DNA of 6,329 bases from a bacterium (GTDB lineage: Bacteria > T1Sed10-126). The position numbers and the translations under genes are program-made. The stretch covers positions 1 to 6,329 of the forward strand of contig PWOD01000141.1 of NCBI GenBank assembly GCA_003557545.1, written 5' to 3'. The notes below the pieces were generated by a model. The model saw only the letters and a list, made by a program, of their open reading frames with translations. It had not been told where the DNA came from and did not search any database. Shown piece after piece: positions 1 through 6,228 of the stretch (within the stretch, counting starts at the first letter, position 1; each line of letters starts with the position of its first letter).

Positions 1-1595
1 GCAGCCTCCTCGACCGGGACGTGTCTGACCACCTCCCAGCCCTGTTTGCGATACGTGGTGATTCTCTGGCTGGCACGCCGGGCCAGCCGGTCACTGAATC
101 GGTCTTCGAAGTCGACGACCACACCCCGGCTCTTGTGGATCTGCGGACAGATCCGCGAGGCCCGGCCCGCTTCCTGCTCGGCCCTGCTGGACGATGCCCC
201 GGCACCGGCCCGGATCACGAACTGGAGCCGCGGGAAATCCACCGCCTCCGACCACACACCCGTGGCGACCACCCCCGGAATCCGTCCCTCGGTGAAATCA
301 ACCCTGACCTGCCGGTAGGTCTCATCGTCCATCCGGTCGGCCATCTTGCTGCCCACCTGGGTCGCACTGCGGATAGACTCCACCTGGGACCTGTACTTTC
401 TCAGCTTCGGCGACCGAGCGAACAGCCACTGAACCCGGTCAACCGGATCATCGGGCATGTCAGAAGCGTTCTCAGCCGCCTTCACGAACGAGGACTCCTT
501 GAGAAGCCGGGCCGCCTCGTTGCGGGCCCTGTCCCCGGGATGGGTGGCGTAGACCAGCGGCCAGTCTGAGCCCAGGTGCTCATGGATGCGCACCGCATGC
601 TCGATGGTCTGGGTCAGGATCAACGTCTGACCCATGCTGACCAGCTGCCTGGCAACCTGGGCGATCTCAGCATTGCGGTCATCGTTGCGCCAGACCCCTT
701 CCCTGTTTACCTCGTGGCTGGATCCGTTCTCAACCGCCCGGCCAGAGCTCTGGACCATCACCACGGTCATCGGTACCACCAGGCCCCGGGCCACGCCCTC
801 GGCATAGGTCACGCTGGACGCCACGGGCCCGAACAGGGACTCGATCTTGATCTCACCATCGTCGTGACGGCCCTCAGGCGTGGCGGTGAATCCGAACATC
901 CGGGCCTTCTGGACCCGACTCAGGGCAAAGAAGCTGCGGTCCACCGCCGCACGGTGAACCTCATCGACCAGCAGCAGAAGGCAAGAAGACAGAAACCCGT
1001 TCCTGTCCGCTGCCTCCAGGCTGTCAAGACTGATGACAGTCACAGGTCGAAACTTCTTCTTGCCGCATCCGATGATGCCCGCATCGACACCCCTCGATTT
1101 GAAGCGATCGTGCAGGTTGAACACCGAACCCCTCCCTTTGGTCACCACCCCGATCGGGTAACGGTCACCGAGGTAACTGTAACTGGCGCAGGCCCTTGAA
1201 ATCACCTCGCTCTTGCCCCAGGCCGTGCAGCAATTGATCAACGCCCGGGGCAGGGTCCATATCGCATCCAGTGCCGGCTGCTGCGTCGGCCTGAGAGCCC
1301 CGACCACGTCCCGGTTGGGTTCAGGCAGGATTTCCAGTTGATGACGGCGGTGGTCCACCGTCTCGTAGGGATAACCCTGCTGGTCCAGGATCCCGCACAC
1401 CCGCTCGTACAGACCACCGTAGGTCACCAGCGACCCACCCGTGACATGATAAAGCGGCTCTTTCTCGAACTCATAACGGTTCTTGTAAGGAACATATGTC
1501 TTTTTGCGCCAGTTGAGATGGGGCCCCAACACCGGCTGGGCCCACTCGCCCGGCGTAACGGACAGCAGGTTGCCGATCCGCTCGACCTTGAGCAT
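1..1595 (-). CDS. UvsW-like superfamily 2 DNA helicase (C-terminus beyond left edge)
   Basis: The minus-strand frame is open from ATG at 1595 to base 1, giving 531 codons with no stop, so the C-terminus is outside the window. Helicase motifs occur in order: a Q-like motif (LRPTQQ, about residues 101-106), Walker A TAWGKS (124-129), DEVH box (211-214), motif III FTATP (236-240), a motif V region near 441-455, and motif VI QEAGRASRI (474-482) with candidate arginine fingers R478 and R481. The first 90 residues resemble the extra N-terminal region of phage UvsW-type helicases. That family is known to unwind branched DNA and R-loops and to drive branch migration in recombination-dependent replication. 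The start is supported by AAGGGG eight bases before the ATG. The gene follows the Rad50-like gene by 90 bp. Walker A lacks the usual first glycine of GxGKS/T (A125-W126-G127-K128-S129). A related DEAD-like helicase of another subfamily is possible. Confidence 0.9.
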   Translation of the reverse strand, partial: MLKVERIGNLLSVTPGEWAQPVLGPHLNWRKKTYVPYKNRYEFEKEPLYHVTGGSLVTYGGLYERVCGILDQQGYPYETVDHRRHQLEILPEPNRDVVGALRPTQQPALDAIWTLPRALINCCTAWGKSEVISRACASYSYLGDRYPIGVVTKGRGSVFNLHDRFKSRGVDAGIIGCGKKKFRPVTVISLDSLEAADRNGFLSSCLLLLVDEVHRAAVDRSFFALSRVQKARMFGFTATPEGRHDDGEIKIESLFGPVASSVTYAEGVARGLVVPMTVVMVQSSGRAVENGSSHEVNREGVWRNDDRNAEIAQVARQLVSMGQTLILTQTIEHAVRIHEHLGSDWPLVYATHPGDRARNEAARLLKESSFVKAAENASDMPDDPVDRVQWLFARSPKLRKYRSQVESIRSATQVGSKMADRMDDETYRQVRVDFTEGRIPGVVATGVWSEAVDFPRLQFVIRAGAGASSSRAEQEAGRASRICPQIHKSRGVVVDFEDRFSDRLARRASQRITTYRKQGWEVVRHVPVEEA

Positions 1596-1685: not shown

Positions 1686-4049
1686 TCAACTCTGGACTTC
1701 AGCCCGACTTAACTTGTCGATTTTTTTCGATGACAGGTCGATCGCCTCATCACAGGCCCCGGCGATCTCATCATGATGGGTGGTCAGGATCATCTGCGTC
1801 TGACCGTCACCAGACATCGTGCGAAGGCTCTCGGCCATGGTCTCGATACCGTCGCTGTCGAGGCCGTAGGTCGGCTCATCCATGGTCAGCAGCCCGAACG
1901 AGCTGGCGAACAGGGCGTGGACCGACCAGATGAAGGACACACACCACCGGCAGGCCTCCCCACCGGACAACAGTGAAGCCGGATAACGGGACCCATCCGG
2001 CCAGACCGCCTCGAACTCCCCACCATCCAGATCGATCCTGAACTCAGCCCCGAGCCGGGGCAAGTACTCATTGGCCGCGGCCGCGAGGGCCCGGCTGTAC
2101 TGATCGATCATCTCCGCCGGAAGCTGATCCCGATGCAGCAGTTCCCGCAACCGTGTCACCTTGTCCTTGAACCGGCGCTTGCTCTCAGCACGCTGCTGCC
2201 ACTGGGTCATCTCCTCATGGCTATCCCTGAGACGCTTTAGCTGACTGGCCATGTAATCCATCGTGCTCCGTGCCGCTTCCAGATCCGATCTCAGCTTGCG
2301 GTGGGTCTCCACCTCCCGTCGGGCCTTCTCGACCTGACTGTCGGTGGGTGCCTCGGCCACCACCCGCTCGGCCTGCTCAAAAGATTCCTGAACCTGCTGC
2401 CACTCGGACTTGGCCTCATTGAGCTGACTGGACAGGTCCACCACCTGCCCACTGAGCTGACGGTGTTCGTACTCCAGGCTCTGCAGTTGCTGTAAAGTAT
2501 TGGACAGCAACTGCTTACGTTCAAGGTTAAACTCCACCGCCGGCAGCTGATCCAGCTTGGCCTGCAGGTCGGCCAGCGACTGCTCGATGTGCTGCCGGGC
2601 CGCCTGGACCTGGGCGTTGTGTTTCTGGGCCTCTGACAGGTCCTTCTGATACTGCCGCTGACGGGCGAGATTATTGCTTCTGACCTGAGACAGGTCGTCC
2701 TGAGCCTTCCGCAGGCTGATCTGGGCCCTCTTGCGATCCCGACCCGTTTGTTTCTCCCGCTCAACCATCTCGGCTCGCCTGCGGCTGATCGTGTCCGGAT
2801 CGGCCAGGTTCTGCACCGTCTGGGTGAACGCCTGCTGGATCGCTGGCAGGTCACCCTGGGTCTGGTTGCCCTCGGCCCGGTAGATATAACTGGGGCCCGG
2901 GTGAGCCTCGACACGGATATCCACAGCCAGGACGCTGCTTTCATCCAGAACGGACAGGGCCGACCTGGCCGCCTCATGTTCCTGGTCCGACTTGTCGAAG
3001 GCCCTCTGGGCCTGATCGACCTGCTCCTGATAGGGCTGCTCATCCACCTGCTGCGGCTCTTGCGGCTCTTGGACCGGCTGACCGGGATCCCGGGCCTTGA
3101 GCTGATCGATCTGGGACTGCAGGCTCTTCCTCTGGCTGTGAGCCATCTCCTGCTGGTTGAGCTCTTCCAGTGCCTCCTGAACGGCCGCAGCGTCGCCGTG
3201 TTCGGCCTGGAGCTTGTCCAGTGCTGACTTGACCTGTTGATACCGTTCGATGCTGGAGGTGCTGGTGGCCCGGACGCGGGCCAGTCTCTGCTCCAGATGC
3301 TCTTTCTGGTCCTTGAGATGGTCCCGCTTGGCCCGGGCTTCCAGGGCCGCTTCCGACAACCGGATTGTCTGCTGGGCCTGTTCCAGGTCAATGCCGCCCA
3401 GCCGCTGCTCCAGCTCCTGCCGGGACTTCTCCTTCTGATGCCATTCCTGCTTCTGACTCTCGATCTGAGCCGACAGCCGGTCCATCTCATCGCGGTAGTC
3501 GGGGACTTCCCCCAGCTTCTTGATGAGCCCGGCCAGCTCATCACGGCTCTTTTCCAGCCAGTCCAGCCCGGTCAGCTTCAAAAACGCCGTCTGTCGATCG
3601 GCCCTGGACTCGAAGAGCAGGCTCTGCATCTGGCCCTGCTGGATGAAGCTGAACCGGGTGATCGAGGCAGTGTCCAACCCCAACCGCTCCTGGATCCAGC
3701 CAAGCACCGCCCGGGAGCCGGTGATCGACTCATCACCGCAGGTCAGCTTCCGGCCGCCGCCGGCGAGGTCGGTTTCCAGGGTCATCAGCCGGCCATCGTG
3801 CAGCCGGTACCGTCCCTCGATCCAGCTCTCATCGGCCTGCTCGCTGCCGACCCGGCGGATCATCTTCTGTATCGTCGAACCCTGCATGGCGTTGCCGGTC
3901 AGCTGCAGCCGGATGGCGCTGAGCACGGTGCTCTTGCCACATCCGTTGGGCCCGACCAGTCCCAGGTTGCGGCCACCGGTGAAGTCCACCGACAACTCAT
4001 CCACACCCCGGACGTTCTTGAGTTTAATGCTCTCGACGCGAATGCTCAT
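1686..4049 (-). CDS. Rad50/SbcC/gp46-like SMC-family ATPase without a zinc hook
   Basis: This 787-residue protein has the complete split ABC ATPase of the SMC/Rad50 class. Walker A is GPNGCGKST (33-41), the Q-loop lies in FIQQGQ (135-140), the signature is LLSGGE (693-698), Walker B is LLTMDEPT (720-727), the D-loop is GLDSD (729-733), and the switch histidine is in TTHHD (756-760). Between the lobes, residues of about 155-645 are rich in Q, E, K, R and L, as in a long coiled coil. In this family ATP-driven head engagement controls an associated nuclease (SbcD, Mre11, gp47) that trims DNA ends. No CxxC hook lies at the coil apex. The only C-x-x-C (C700-C703) follows the signature motif. The apex instead holds a Pro/Gln/Glu-rich segment (about 321-339) and a non-coiled stretch (about 365-420). 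The ATG overlaps the preceding 32-aa ORF stop, with AAAGG seven bases upstream. A RecF-like or defence-type SMC ATPase is an alternative. Confidence 0.9.
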   Translation of the reverse strand: MSIRVESIKLKNVRGVDELSVDFTGGRNLGLVGPNGCGKSTVLSAIRLQLTGNAMQGSTIQKMIRRVGSEQADESWIEGRYRLHDGRLMTLETDLAGGGRKLTCGDESITGSRAVLGWIQERLGLDTASITRFSFIQQGQMQSLLFESRADRQTAFLKLTGLDWLEKSRDELAGLIKKLGEVPDYRDEMDRLSAQIESQKQEWHQKEKSRQELEQRLGGIDLEQAQQTIRLSEAALEARAKRDHLKDQKEHLEQRLARVRATSTSSIERYQQVKSALDKLQAEHGDAAAVQEALEELNQQEMAHSQRKSLQSQIDQLKARDPGQPVQEPQEPQQVDEQPYQEQVDQAQRAFDKSDQEHEAARSALSVLDESSVLAVDIRVEAHPGPSYIYRAEGNQTQGDLPAIQQAFTQTVQNLADPDTISRRRAEMVEREKQTGRDRKRAQISLRKAQDDLSQVRSNNLARQRQYQKDLSEAQKHNAQVQAARQHIEQSLADLQAKLDQLPAVEFNLERKQLLSNTLQQLQSLEYEHRQLSGQVVDLSSQLNEAKSEWQQVQESFEQAERVVAEAPTDSQVEKARREVETHRKLRSDLEAARSTMDYMASQLKRLRDSHEEMTQWQQRAESKRRFKDKVTRLRELLHRDQLPAEMIDQYSRALAAAANEYLPRLGAEFRIDLDGGEFEAVWPDGSRYPASLLSGGEACRWCVSFIWSVHALFASSFGLLTMDEPTYGLDSDGIETMAESLRTMSGDGQTQMILTTHHDEIAGACDEAIDLSSKKIDKLSRAEVQS

Positions 4050-4144
4050 GAAAGAACCTTTCGTTTGTGGTAGTACCGGCCCAGGATCTCAAAGGCCTCA
4101 CTGTACCGCGAGACGGGCGGATCTGACTGGTATTCTCTGGTCAT
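4046..4144 (-). CDS. Small 32-aa protein, unrecognised, coupled to its neighbours
   Basis: This 99-base ORF encodes 32 residues beginning MTREYQSDPP and ending HKRKVLS. It fills the space between the 90-aa gene and the Rad50-like gene exactly. Its ATG overlaps the upstream TGA by four bases (ATGA), and its own TGA overlaps the ATG of the Rad50-like gene in the same way. A good Shine-Dalgarno, GAGGG six bases before the ATG, lies inside the end of the upstream gene. The second half (SEAFEILGRYYHKRK) could form a basic amphipathic helix. I do not recognise a family. The precise double overlap and the ribosome site argue that it is translated, either as a small partner protein or as a coupling cistron for the ATPase. 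Confidence 0.6.
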   Translation of the reverse strand: MTREYQSDPPVSRYSEAFEILGRYYHKRKVLS

Positions 4145-4413
4145 TGGTCACCCTCTTCTTTCCGTCTACGGTAAACCTCACCCATAGCCCAAAAAAGAGC
4201 CCGGGTACCGGGACGGGTGTCCCGACTCGGTTTCAACACAATCCCCAGGTCCACCAGCTCCTGAGTGGTCATCAATCTGTCAAGAGAGGATACCAGCCGG
4301 TCGACCGCCTCCTGTCGCTCGAACTCATCCTGCATCGCCCGGACCGTCGGGTCGGGCTGGTTGGGATCGGTACGATATCTCAAGAGATGCTCACCCACCT
4401 TTTCGGTCAACAT
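4141..4413 (-). CDS. Hypothetical 90-aa protein, unrecognised
   Basis: The frame is open further upstream to an ATG at 4473, but the first 20 residues of that version are a tryptophan-rich out-of-frame shadow of the HTH-like ORF. I therefore chose the internal ATG at 4413, which gives 90 residues starting MLTEKVGEHL. It overlaps the HTH-like ORF by 23 bases and ends in a TGA that overlaps the next ATG. There is no clear Shine-Dalgarno, so translation probably depends on re-initiation from the preceding ORF. The protein is predicted to be mostly helical and charged: an acidic stretch near residues 27-36 (MQDEFERQEA), a short segment MTTQELVDLG near 48-57, and a basic tail YRRRKEE. There are no cysteines, signal peptide or membrane segment. 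I do not recognise a family. Its position suggests a role connected with the recombination genes, but this is only inference. Confidence 0.72.
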   Translation of the reverse strand: MLTEKVGEHLLRYRTDPNQPDPTVRAMQDEFERQEAVDRLVSSLDRLMTTQELVDLGIVLKPSRDTRPGTRALFWAMGEVYRRRKEEGDQ

Positions 4414-4549
4414 AACCAGTAATGCGATCCGCCACCAGCTCCACCTGCCACTCACACCCCAGGCACCGGGCAATATCCGCCAGGTCCTCCACCGTGAACC
4501 TCTTGGAACCGTTTAGGCGCTTCTTGAGCCAACCCTTCTTTCGACCCAT
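4391..4549 (-). CDS. Short helix-turn-helix-like protein, perhaps truncated by the insertion
   Basis: The ORF encodes 52 residues. Residues 3-32 (from RKKGWLKKRLNG through FTVEDLADIARCLGC) resemble the recognition helix and following helices of Cro/CI (XRE) type DNA-binding proteins, where a W/V-S-K-x-LNG pattern precedes a TxEDLxxIAxALG helix. The helices normally found before this, about 25 residues, are absent. The ATG lies only a few bases from the left end of the inserted IS element, and no Shine-Dalgarno precedes it there (only CCGCGGTTG). Either the insertion removed the true N-terminus, or the ATG is native and the insertion removed the ribosome site. Removing the element in silico places GGTGA at a suitable distance. 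The 3' end overlaps the 90-aa gene, so this ORF probably led the operon segment. Family assignment is tentative. Confidence 0.55.
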   Translation of the reverse strand: MGRKKGWLKKRLNGSKRFTVEDLADIARCLGCEWQVELVADRITGYVDRKGG

Positions 4550-4566
4550 CAACCGCGGCAAGGGGA

Positions 4567-4586
4567 CCGTCGCCTTCAGGCGACGG
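4567..4586 (+). repeat. Left-end hairpin of the IS element
   Basis: CCGTCGCC (4567-4574) pairs perfectly with GGCGACGG (4579-4586) around a TTCA loop. Its position just inside the left border matches the subterminal hairpin that Y1 transposases bind at the left end. The bases before its foot (AGGGGA) would hold the guide that recognises the cleavage site. No T-run follows, so it is not a typical terminator. Confidence 0.75.
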
Positions 4587-4606
4587 GGGAATTGCCGCCC
4601 TCCCTC

Positions 4607-4634
4607 TTGATTAGAAGAATGCAGTCTGTATAAT
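4607..4634 (+). promoter_or_regulatory. Sigma70-type promoter for tnpA, predicted to give a leaderless transcript
   Basis: A perfect TATAAT lies at 4629-4634, and TTGATT (4 of 6 matches to TTGACA) lies at 4607-4612 with a 16-base spacer. The usual start point, about seven bases after the -10 box, falls at 4641-4642, which is the tnpA ATG itself. The region is much more AT-rich than its surroundings. No Shine-Dalgarno is seen before the ATG, consistent with a leaderless mRNA. Confidence 0.6.
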
Positions 4635-4641
4635 AGGCATC

Positions 4642-5040
4642 ATGGAGCCACGTTACTCCAAGAATGCCGGGGCGGTCTTCTCTCTGAAGTACCACCTCGT
4701 CTGGTGTCCCAAGTACAGGCGTGCCGTCCTCGTCGATGACGTGGCCGACGGTCTGAAGCAACTCCTCACGGAGAAGGCTGCGGAACTGGAGATGTCCGTC
4801 CTGACGATGGAGGTGATGCCGGATCACGTCCACCTCTTCGTCGAGTCGGACCCACGTTGGGCGGTGGCCGAGATCGTCAATCGCCTCAAGGGCTACACGT
4901 CCCGCATCCTCCGATCCGAGTTCCGGCCCCTGCGATCCAGGCTGCCGACCCTGTGGAGCCGGTCGTACTACGCCGGGACAGTCGGGCATGTCAGCGAGGC
5001 GACCGTGAGACGTTACATCGAGAGCCAGACCGGGAAGTGA
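4642..5040 (+). CDS. tnpA: IS200/IS605 Y1 transposase TnpA (HUH single-strand transposase)
   Basis: The 132-residue product has the usual length of IS200-type transposases. It contains the metal-binding HUH motif H62-V-H64 within MEVMPDHVHLFVE, the conserved YHLVWCPKYRR near the N-terminus (residues 17-27), and the catalytic tyrosine Y125 in VRRYIESQ near the C-terminus. These enzymes act as dimers, cut single-stranded element ends through a 5'-phosphotyrosine link, and excise and insert the element as a circle, often at the replication fork. All catalytic residues are present. The start has no ribosome site but lies at the predicted transcription start of a TATAAT promoter. The stop is three bases before the tnpB ATG, so both genes are probably on one transcript. 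Confidence 0.95.
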   Translation: MEPRYSKNAGAVFSLKYHLVWCPKYRRAVLVDDVADGLKQLLTEKAAELEMSVLTMEVMPDHVHLFVESDPRWAVAEIVNRLKGYTSRILRSEFRPLRSRLPTLWSRSYYAGTVGHVSEATVRRYIESQTGK

Positions 5041-5043
5041 CCG

Positions 5044-6165
5044 ATGCGTAGGGCCTACAAATACCGACTCTTCACGAACGCCAACCAGGAGCGGGAACTG
5101 GATGCGATGCTGGAGACGCATCGTAGGCTGTACAACTCCTGCCTGGCCCAGCGGAAGGAGCGGTACGAGGCCGAGAAGGTCACGGTCAAGTACACGGAGC
5201 AGTCGGCCCGGTTTAAGGTCGAGCGATCCACCAACCCTTACTATGCTCGGCTCAACTTTTCGTCGGCCCAGGCGACGATGCGGCGGTTGGACAAGGCGTT
5301 CGCCAACTTCTTCCGCCGGATCAAGGCGAAGGAGACGCCCGGCTATCCCCGGTTCAAGGCCAGGGACCGATTCCACTCGATCGAGTTCCCGGCTCACGGG
5401 GACGGCATCCGGTTGACCGGCAACCGCCTGCGGGTCCAACACGTCGGCACGATCCGGGTCAAACTCCACCGTCCGGTCGAAGGGACGATCAAGACCGTCA
5501 CCCTCAAGCGTGAGGCCGACAGGTGGTACGTCGTCGTCTCCTGCGACCTGGGTGATGTCCAGGTCGAGCCGAGCGACAAGCCTCCGGTCGGCATTGACGT
5601 GGGAATCGAGTCGTTCCTGACCACTTCTGAAGGCGTCCAGGAGCCGAATCCCCGATACCTCAAGGATGCGTTGCCGGACCTCCGCAGGAAGCAGCGGAGC
5701 GTGTCCCGCAAGCAGAAGGGCGGCAAGAACCGCCGCAAGGCCGTAAAGAAGGTGGCGAGGGCTCATGCCCGTGTCCGCAACCTGCGACGGGAGCATCACC
5801 ACCAAGTTGCGTTGCGTCTGGTCCGTCGTCATGGCGTGATCGCTGCGGAAAGCCTGAACATCCGGGGGATGCTCGGGAACCGCAGGCTCGCCAGGGCGAT
5901 CAGCGATGTTGCCTGGGGCAACTTCTTGCTGACGCTGCGATCCAAGGCTGAGAGTGCCGGGGTCGCATTCGTGGAGGTTGATCCTCGGGGAACCTCGCAG
6001 GAGTGTTCCGGGTGCGGTCGTGTTGTTCGGAAGGCACTCGGCCAACGGTGGCACTCCTGCGAATGTGGTTGTTCCCTGCATCGAGATCACAACGCCGCCA
6101 GGAACGTCCTGGCTCGTTGTCTGGCCCGGACGGGGCCAGTGGGCGTCAAGGTCGGCGTTGGCTGA
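5044..6165 (+). CDS. tnpB: TnpB RNA-guided DNA endonuclease (IS605 OrfB)
   Basis: The 373-residue protein is close to the usual TnpB length. The N-terminal part begins with the characteristic MRRAYKYRLFTNANQE, and SSAQATMRRLDKAFANFFRR is the family helix near 73-92. The RuvC-like catalytic residues are all visible: D185 in PVGIDVGIES, E269 in VIAAESLNIRGM, and D348 in LHRDHNAARNVL. A zinc finger lies between the last two, with C321 and C324 (CSGC) and a cluster C339, C341, C343. TnpB of known members uses an RNA from the element's right end to cut double-stranded DNA next to a short motif, favouring retention of the element after excision. The protein thus looks catalytically competent. The gene starts three bases after the tnpA stop with only a weak ribosome site (GGGAAGTGA), which suggests coupling. 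Its last part probably overlaps the guide RNA. Confidence 0.95.
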   Translation: MRRAYKYRLFTNANQERELDAMLETHRRLYNSCLAQRKERYEAEKVTVKYTEQSARFKVERSTNPYYARLNFSSAQATMRRLDKAFANFFRRIKAKETPGYPRFKARDRFHSIEFPAHGDGIRLTGNRLRVQHVGTIRVKLHRPVEGTIKTVTLKREADRWYVVVSCDLGDVQVEPSDKPPVGIDVGIESFLTTSEGVQEPNPRYLKDALPDLRRKQRSVSRKQKGGKNRRKAVKKVARAHARVRNLRREHHHQVALRLVRRHGVIAAESLNIRGMLGNRRLARAISDVAWGNFLLTLRSKAESAGVAFVEVDPRGTSQECSGCGRVVRKALGQRWHSCECGCSLHRDHNAARNVLARCLARTGPVGVKVGVG

Positions 6166-6228
6166 CTTCGCCCAAGAAGCCGCTCCCTTCAGGGAGCGGA
6201 GTCGTCACTCACCTTGACCTGGAGGGTC
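6060..6228 (+). ncRNA. Predicted TnpB guide RNA (omega RNA / reRNA) with guide beyond the right end
   Basis: In studied IS200/IS605 elements the TnpB guide RNA comes from the tnpB 3' end plus the right end, and its guide is the adjoining flank. The expected structure is present here: a perfect 7-bp stem CTGGCCC/GGGCCAG (6121-6127 with 6133-6139) inside tnpB, a possible longer pairing GGGCG/CGCCC (6141-6145 with 6169-6173), and the 8-bp terminal hairpin at 6180-6199. With the right border at 6208, the guide would begin TCACCTTGACC at 6209. The 5' end at 6060 and the 20-base guide length are estimates. Confidence 0.5.
6180..6199 (+). repeat. Right-end hairpin of the IS element
   Basis: CCGCTCCC (6180-6187) pairs perfectly with GGGAGCGG (6192-6199) around the same TTCA loop as the left hairpin. 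Stem length and loop are the same, but the stem sequence differs. It would serve both as the TnpA recognition structure and as the terminal stem of the guide RNA. No T-run follows. Confidence 0.75.

Follow-up and report, generated by a model that had tools for sequence, protein, structure and literature searches.

A probable phage Rad50/gp46-like ATPase whose coil tip has no cysteines where the zinc hook would be

The CxxC hook at the tip of the coiled coil has been called absolutely conserved in Rad50 (PMC13402864); it is described as kept even in viruses, and loss of zinc binding has been reported to be lethal (PMC5093744). In the literature searched, a hook-less Rad50 had no precedent apart from LmuB. 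The locus described here raises the question of whether a Rad50/gp46-like ATPase has lost this hook and, if so, what occupies the tip of its coil. The window, i.e. the whole stretch of DNA analysed, is 6,329 nucleotides long. ORF calling placed a single open reading frame of 787 residues at 1686-4049 on the minus strand, the strand having been absent from the original prediction. The protein and its parts are as follows.

1686..4049, minus strand: 787-aa Rad50/gp46-like ABC ATPase, antiparallel coil between the half-heads (ORF, phrog_77, SMC_N, AAA_23, gp46 profile)
3927..3953, minus strand: Walker A GPNGCGKST, residues 33-41 (motif reading)
3630..3647, minus strand: Q-loop FIQQGQ, residues 135-140 (motif reading; aligned to gp46)
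3096..3503, minus strand: ascending coiled-coil arm, residues ~183-318 (helix in both AlphaFold models; heptad signal)
3033..3095, minus strand: residues 319-339, a break rich in Pro and Gln that interrupts the ascending arm (non-helical in both models)
2844..2936, minus strand: Cys-free tip at the zinc-hook position, residues ~372-402, SVLAVDIRVEAHPGPSYIYRAEGNQTQGDLP (alignments, fractional distance, beta periodicity, AlphaFold loop)
2136..2843, minus strand: descending coiled-coil arm, residues ~403-638 (helix in both models)
1953..1967, minus strand: ABC signature SGGEA, residues 695-699 (motif reading)
1857..1892, minus strand: Walker B and D-loop LLTMDEPTYGLD, residues 720-731, catalytic Glu retained (motif reading)
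1767..1784, minus strand: H-switch TTHHDE, residues 756-761 (motif reading; H758 invariant in two alignments)

A bipartite ABC head is thus complete from Walker A through Q-loop, signature, Walker B with its glutamate and D-loop to the H-switch, as originally predicted. A long antiparallel coil lies between the half-heads, as seen from the heptad signal and from low-confidence AlphaFold models. The Pfam families SMC_N and AAA_23 scored above cut-off, and the best phage family in PHROGs was phrog_77 (SbcC/gp46, E=8e-36). A profile made from 30 non-redundant phage gp46 sequences matched the protein at E=4.9e-21, including the conserved pre-signature segment. Foldseek placed the Rad50 chains 7zr1 and 3av0 on top among solved structures, the query being a poor model. 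The half-heads without the coil matched PADLOC Mad3 at 3.6e-14 and 8.6e-16, and phrog_77 more weakly, at 2.5e-6 and, for the C-terminal half, 2.9e-11. Orthology with gp46 is probable and not settled, because the half-heads alone score best against Mad3.

The other genes of the window are listed below.

3..1595, minus strand: UvsW-like superfamily-2 helicase, downstream of the ATPase and co-oriented with it, truncated at its 3' end where the contig stops (phrog_16, S-CRM01 UvsW)
4141..4473, minus strand: small ORF upstream of the ATPase, start uncertain, 89-110 aa (ORF calling)
4642-5040, plus strand: Y1 transposase TnpA of an IS200/IS605-type element
5044-6165, plus strand: TnpB of the same element

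The helicase matched the superfamily-2 DNA helicases of phrog_16 at E=7e-35 and UvsW of S-CRM01 at E=5e-7; its nearest solved sequence is XPBII (2.3e-6), not UvsW. Phage OC has uvsW, gp47 and gp46 in one cluster, and Group 2 jumbo phages have SbcC/SbcD homologues and UvsW in their core set (PMC7824862). The pairing of a gp46-like with a UvsW-like gene points to a T4-type recombination module. An Mre11/gp47 gene adjoins gp46 in most of the gp46-bearing phages looked at; none is visible in the 6.3 kb window, and the six metallophosphatase matches in the bin are all on host-like loci of 39-46% GC. The small ORF at 4141..4473 had no family match in Pfam, PHROGs and a further search. The IS200/IS605-type element appears complete, occupies 4560-6210 with hairpins near 4566-4590 and 6176-6201, and is present as a single copy in the assembly. 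The ORF directly next to its end, at 4391-4549 on the minus strand, is small and helix-turn-helix-like (MGRKKGWLKKRLNGSKRFTVEDLADIARCLG...); the insertion may have truncated it, and it weakly matches the phage repressor family phrog_4583 (E=0.0045).

The source bin comprises 2.15 Mb in 239 contigs. The contig has a G+C content of 62% against an average of 45% (37-53%) for the sampled contigs of the bin, and its tetranucleotide correlation with the bin is 0.12, whereas the bin's own contigs average 0.85, with one as low as 0.21. Because both profiles depart from the bin, the contig is very probably foreign and misbinned. The helicase, the PHROG matches and the foreign composition make a phage origin likely; phage structural genes were not found in the 6.3 kb window. 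A different phage fragment in the same bin (L042, G000:C7) carries a terminase large subunit and a possible portal protein; its G+C content of 41% is near that of the bin.

A resemblance to defence ATPases must be weighed against this context. Mad3 (MADS) shares the head sequence profile, and LmuB (Lamassu) shares an optional hook, many but not all of its homologues being hook-bearing according to a review (PMC10586767). Together with the best half-head matches going to Mad3 and the lack of an adjacent nuclease gene, this suggests an SMC/Rad50-like ATPase outside the Mre11-Rad50 nuclease, kin for example to Mad3 or LmuB, in which hooks are optional. Such an identity is unlikely, if still to be reckoned with: the neighbour is a phage helicase of the UvsW type, the pre-signature segment matches gp46, and the partner genes of the defence systems are missing, no methyltransferase, LmuA or LmuC being recognised within the window. 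The Walker B glutamate is moreover kept (MDEPT), whereas LmuB generally has Gln (PMC10586767); neither the Glu-to-Gln change nor the LmuA/LmuC partners that define Lamassu LmuB were found in the window.

Cysteines occur in the protein only at residues 37, 104, 700, 703 and 766. Residues 105-699 are free of them, which agrees with the predicted absence of cysteines from the coil apex, and the CxxC tip that characterises Rad50, SbcC and gp46 is missing. Absence of cysteine could by itself be chance in a Q-rich coil; it is meaningful because all 84 sampled relatives with a full-length coil, from phages or plasmids, have CxxC at the matching place, with some redundancy among the 84. These span T4-like, T5-like, Ackermannviridae, Herelleviridae, Lak and jumbo phages. 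Sixty-four are gp46-like proteins from viral contigs (30 of them less than 70% identical to one another); on a scale running from Walker A (0) to the RIDL motif that adjoins the signature (1), their CxxC lies at 0.50-0.59. The other 20 are five annotated relatives; D146, phiLo and Paride; eleven sequences from Ackermannviridae, Herelleviridae, T5-like, Pootjesviridae, Lak and other phages; and L043, which is 93% identical to phiVP505 and whose CYGC was seen in the alignment. At the equivalent point of the present gene, residues 364-424, no CxxC exists in any reading frame. The absence of a match to the zinc hook family PF04423 was not used as evidence, since it matches only 4 of 32 alignment members, 31 of which are hook-bearing.

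Two phage proteins in this comparison deserve mention. The ATPase of Flavobacterium phage FPSV-S1 (L179:3501-4769), Rad50/RecF-like and 422 residues long, has a short coil and lacks CxxC; it is the only Cys-free phage relative seen, and it has no long arm. A single 866-residue ORF of Thermus phage phiLo (L180:2502-5102) apparently joins a nuclease resembling Mre11 to a Rad50-like ATPase with a CYVC hook.

Nine of the eleven prolines of the coil (residues 185-640) fall within 319-420; with random placement, at least nine in any 102-residue window has P ~0.001. The segment PVQEPQEPQQ (residues 325-334) belongs to a Pro-rich stretch, 319-339, which precedes the tip by some 30-50 residues. Pro-containing breaks occur at a similar distance before CxxC in Vibrio phage VH7D (TPEAP), a T5-like phage (FPAPTD) and a Staphylococcus phage (IPTIPED), and 20 of 64 T4-type gp46 proteins have at least one proline 15-75 aa before the hook. 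Because hook-bearing gp46 proteins show comparable breaks there, residues 319-339 are best read as a break in the arm. The view that the Pro/Gln-rich segment takes the place of the hook was accordingly rejected, as it lies before the tip and has counterparts in these hook-bearing proteins. Length, also put forward as a distinguishing feature, was discarded too: many phage gp46-like homologues are 675-1,009 aa long, a span that includes 787 aa.

The tip itself was located in several ways. The fractional distance gives residues 364-424, two alignments put the CxxC column at ~371 and ~393-402, and the better AlphaFold model turns, with low confidence, at 382-402; the tip therefore lies at approximately 372-402. 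AlphaFold gave a poor model from the single sequence (pLDDT 47) and one of pLDDT 59 from a ten-sequence alignment, with no gain at the tip; a 32-sequence alignment, in which the N-terminal half-head was out of place, did not enter the folding. Both runs interrupt the helix, all at low confidence, at ~319-337 and at 382-402 (or 365-401), which is consistent with the predicted non-coiled apex and argues against a plain continuous coil.

Within the tip, DIRVEAHPGPSYIYRAEG occupies residues 377-394. Of all 9-mers of the coil, VDIRVEAHP (376-384) alternates most strongly in the hydrophobic pattern typical of strands; it is followed by PGP and SYIYRAEG; this periodicity suggests that the tip is probably a short beta-hairpin. 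A small beta-containing domain had been proposed for a stretch within residues 319-420. Strand-like character at the tip is supported by periodicity only; AlphaFold lends no support, assigning no strand there (pLDDT ~30-40 in either run). The canonical zinc hook is already a small beta-hairpin (PMC5093744), so a Cys-free hairpin at this site is a modest structural step, and it would be an enlarged version of the canonical hook, with no new domain. SMC hinge proteins are alike in principle, dimerisation without metal being possible there; their hinge measures 150-200 residues against ~30 here, or at most 100 counting the Pro-rich part, and no hinge family matched.

Searched by tblastn in phages and plasmids, the whole protein gave no close relatives, and the apex alone gave none in phages. 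The half-heads (the C-terminal query with its first five residues wrong, the rest exact) gave no close relative in phages; neither did a distant DNA search, 58 other genomes or one other genome of the same phylum, and a search via the neighbouring helicase gave nothing. Scanning viral and genome contigs for peptide patterns, or searching for motif patterns, yielded no close relative either; both approaches are weak, as this type of scan also missed a known phage gp46. The hook-less variant is a divergent form of a known family, so far one sequence. The proposed distinct phage Rad50 subfamily gained no second member in phage, plasmid and genome searches, which likewise produced no close homologue, with or without CxxC.

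A single known sequence with a transposon just upstream could be a decaying gene or lone variant, in which recent mutation removed the hook after the IS200/IS605 insertion before the operon and left a non-functional protein. This is quite improbable, given 787 open codons with consistent codon usage over the whole gene, intact ATPase motifs throughout, and a tip that is a different segment of ~30 residues with no mere Cys substitutions in a hook. That an assembly or frame error conceals a normal hook is scarcely credible, even for a contig whose bin, of 239 contigs, is metagenome-like: a frameshift was ruled out by in-frame codon usage (log-odds for residues 291-465 positive only in the annotated frame, except that the one window 321-345 is also weakly positive in a second frame; GC3 continuous) and by the absence of CxxC near the apex in the other two frames.

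Compared with T4 gp46 (phage Rad50/SbcC, PHROG 77), the protein is alike in its head motifs, antiparallel coil, pre-signature segment and the company of a UvsW helicase. It differs from T4 gp46 in being ~220 residues longer and without CxxC, in a signature that reads SGGEACRWC instead of SxGExxRIDLA, and in having no adjoining gp47 gene within the window. VH7D gp46 (745 aa, L085) is likewise long-armed, with a break that contains proline ~37 residues ahead of the tip, and aligns over the full length at 21% identity; its tip is CSTC, which the present protein lacks. With the hook of cellular Rad50/SbcC it shares the position at the coil tip and possibly the small hairpin described for the canonical form (PMC5093744), whereas the zinc ligands are missing and the tip is larger.

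On balance, these data favour a phage Rad50 of the gp46/SbcC type, serving recombination-dependent replication, that has lost its CxxC hook and carries a Cys-free tip. Its ABC ATPase head, from which the long antiparallel coil extends, would most likely pair with an Mre11-type nuclease to resect DNA ends, as is thought to be done by Gp46/Gp47 in T4 (PMC3016280). Resection would feed recombination-dependent replication, and the UvsW-like branch-migration helicase would then act on the branched products. The hook would have been lost in this lineage, leaving a Cys-free turn of ~30 residues, probably a short beta-hairpin. There are no paired cysteines at the tip; therefore zinc joining is not possible there. 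The two molecules would instead have to be kept together by the ATP-sandwiched heads and the nuclease dimer, which may suffice, possibly with the help of a metal-free contact made by the new tips.

A bolder and rather doubtful proposal is that the zinc hook has given way to a natural dimerisation module that needs no metal, formed by the tip at ~372-402, probably through two beta-hairpins paired edge to edge. Such a dimer is mechanically possible, because an SMC (MukB) hinge functionally replaces the Rad50 hook in fission yeast (PMC6969161); if true, the module would be the natural counterpart of that engineered hook-to-hinge swap. A working hook-less phage Rad50, if real, would test whether the hook merely joins two arms, as the swap suggests (PMC6969161), and would reveal which steps of end processing are independent of tip joining.
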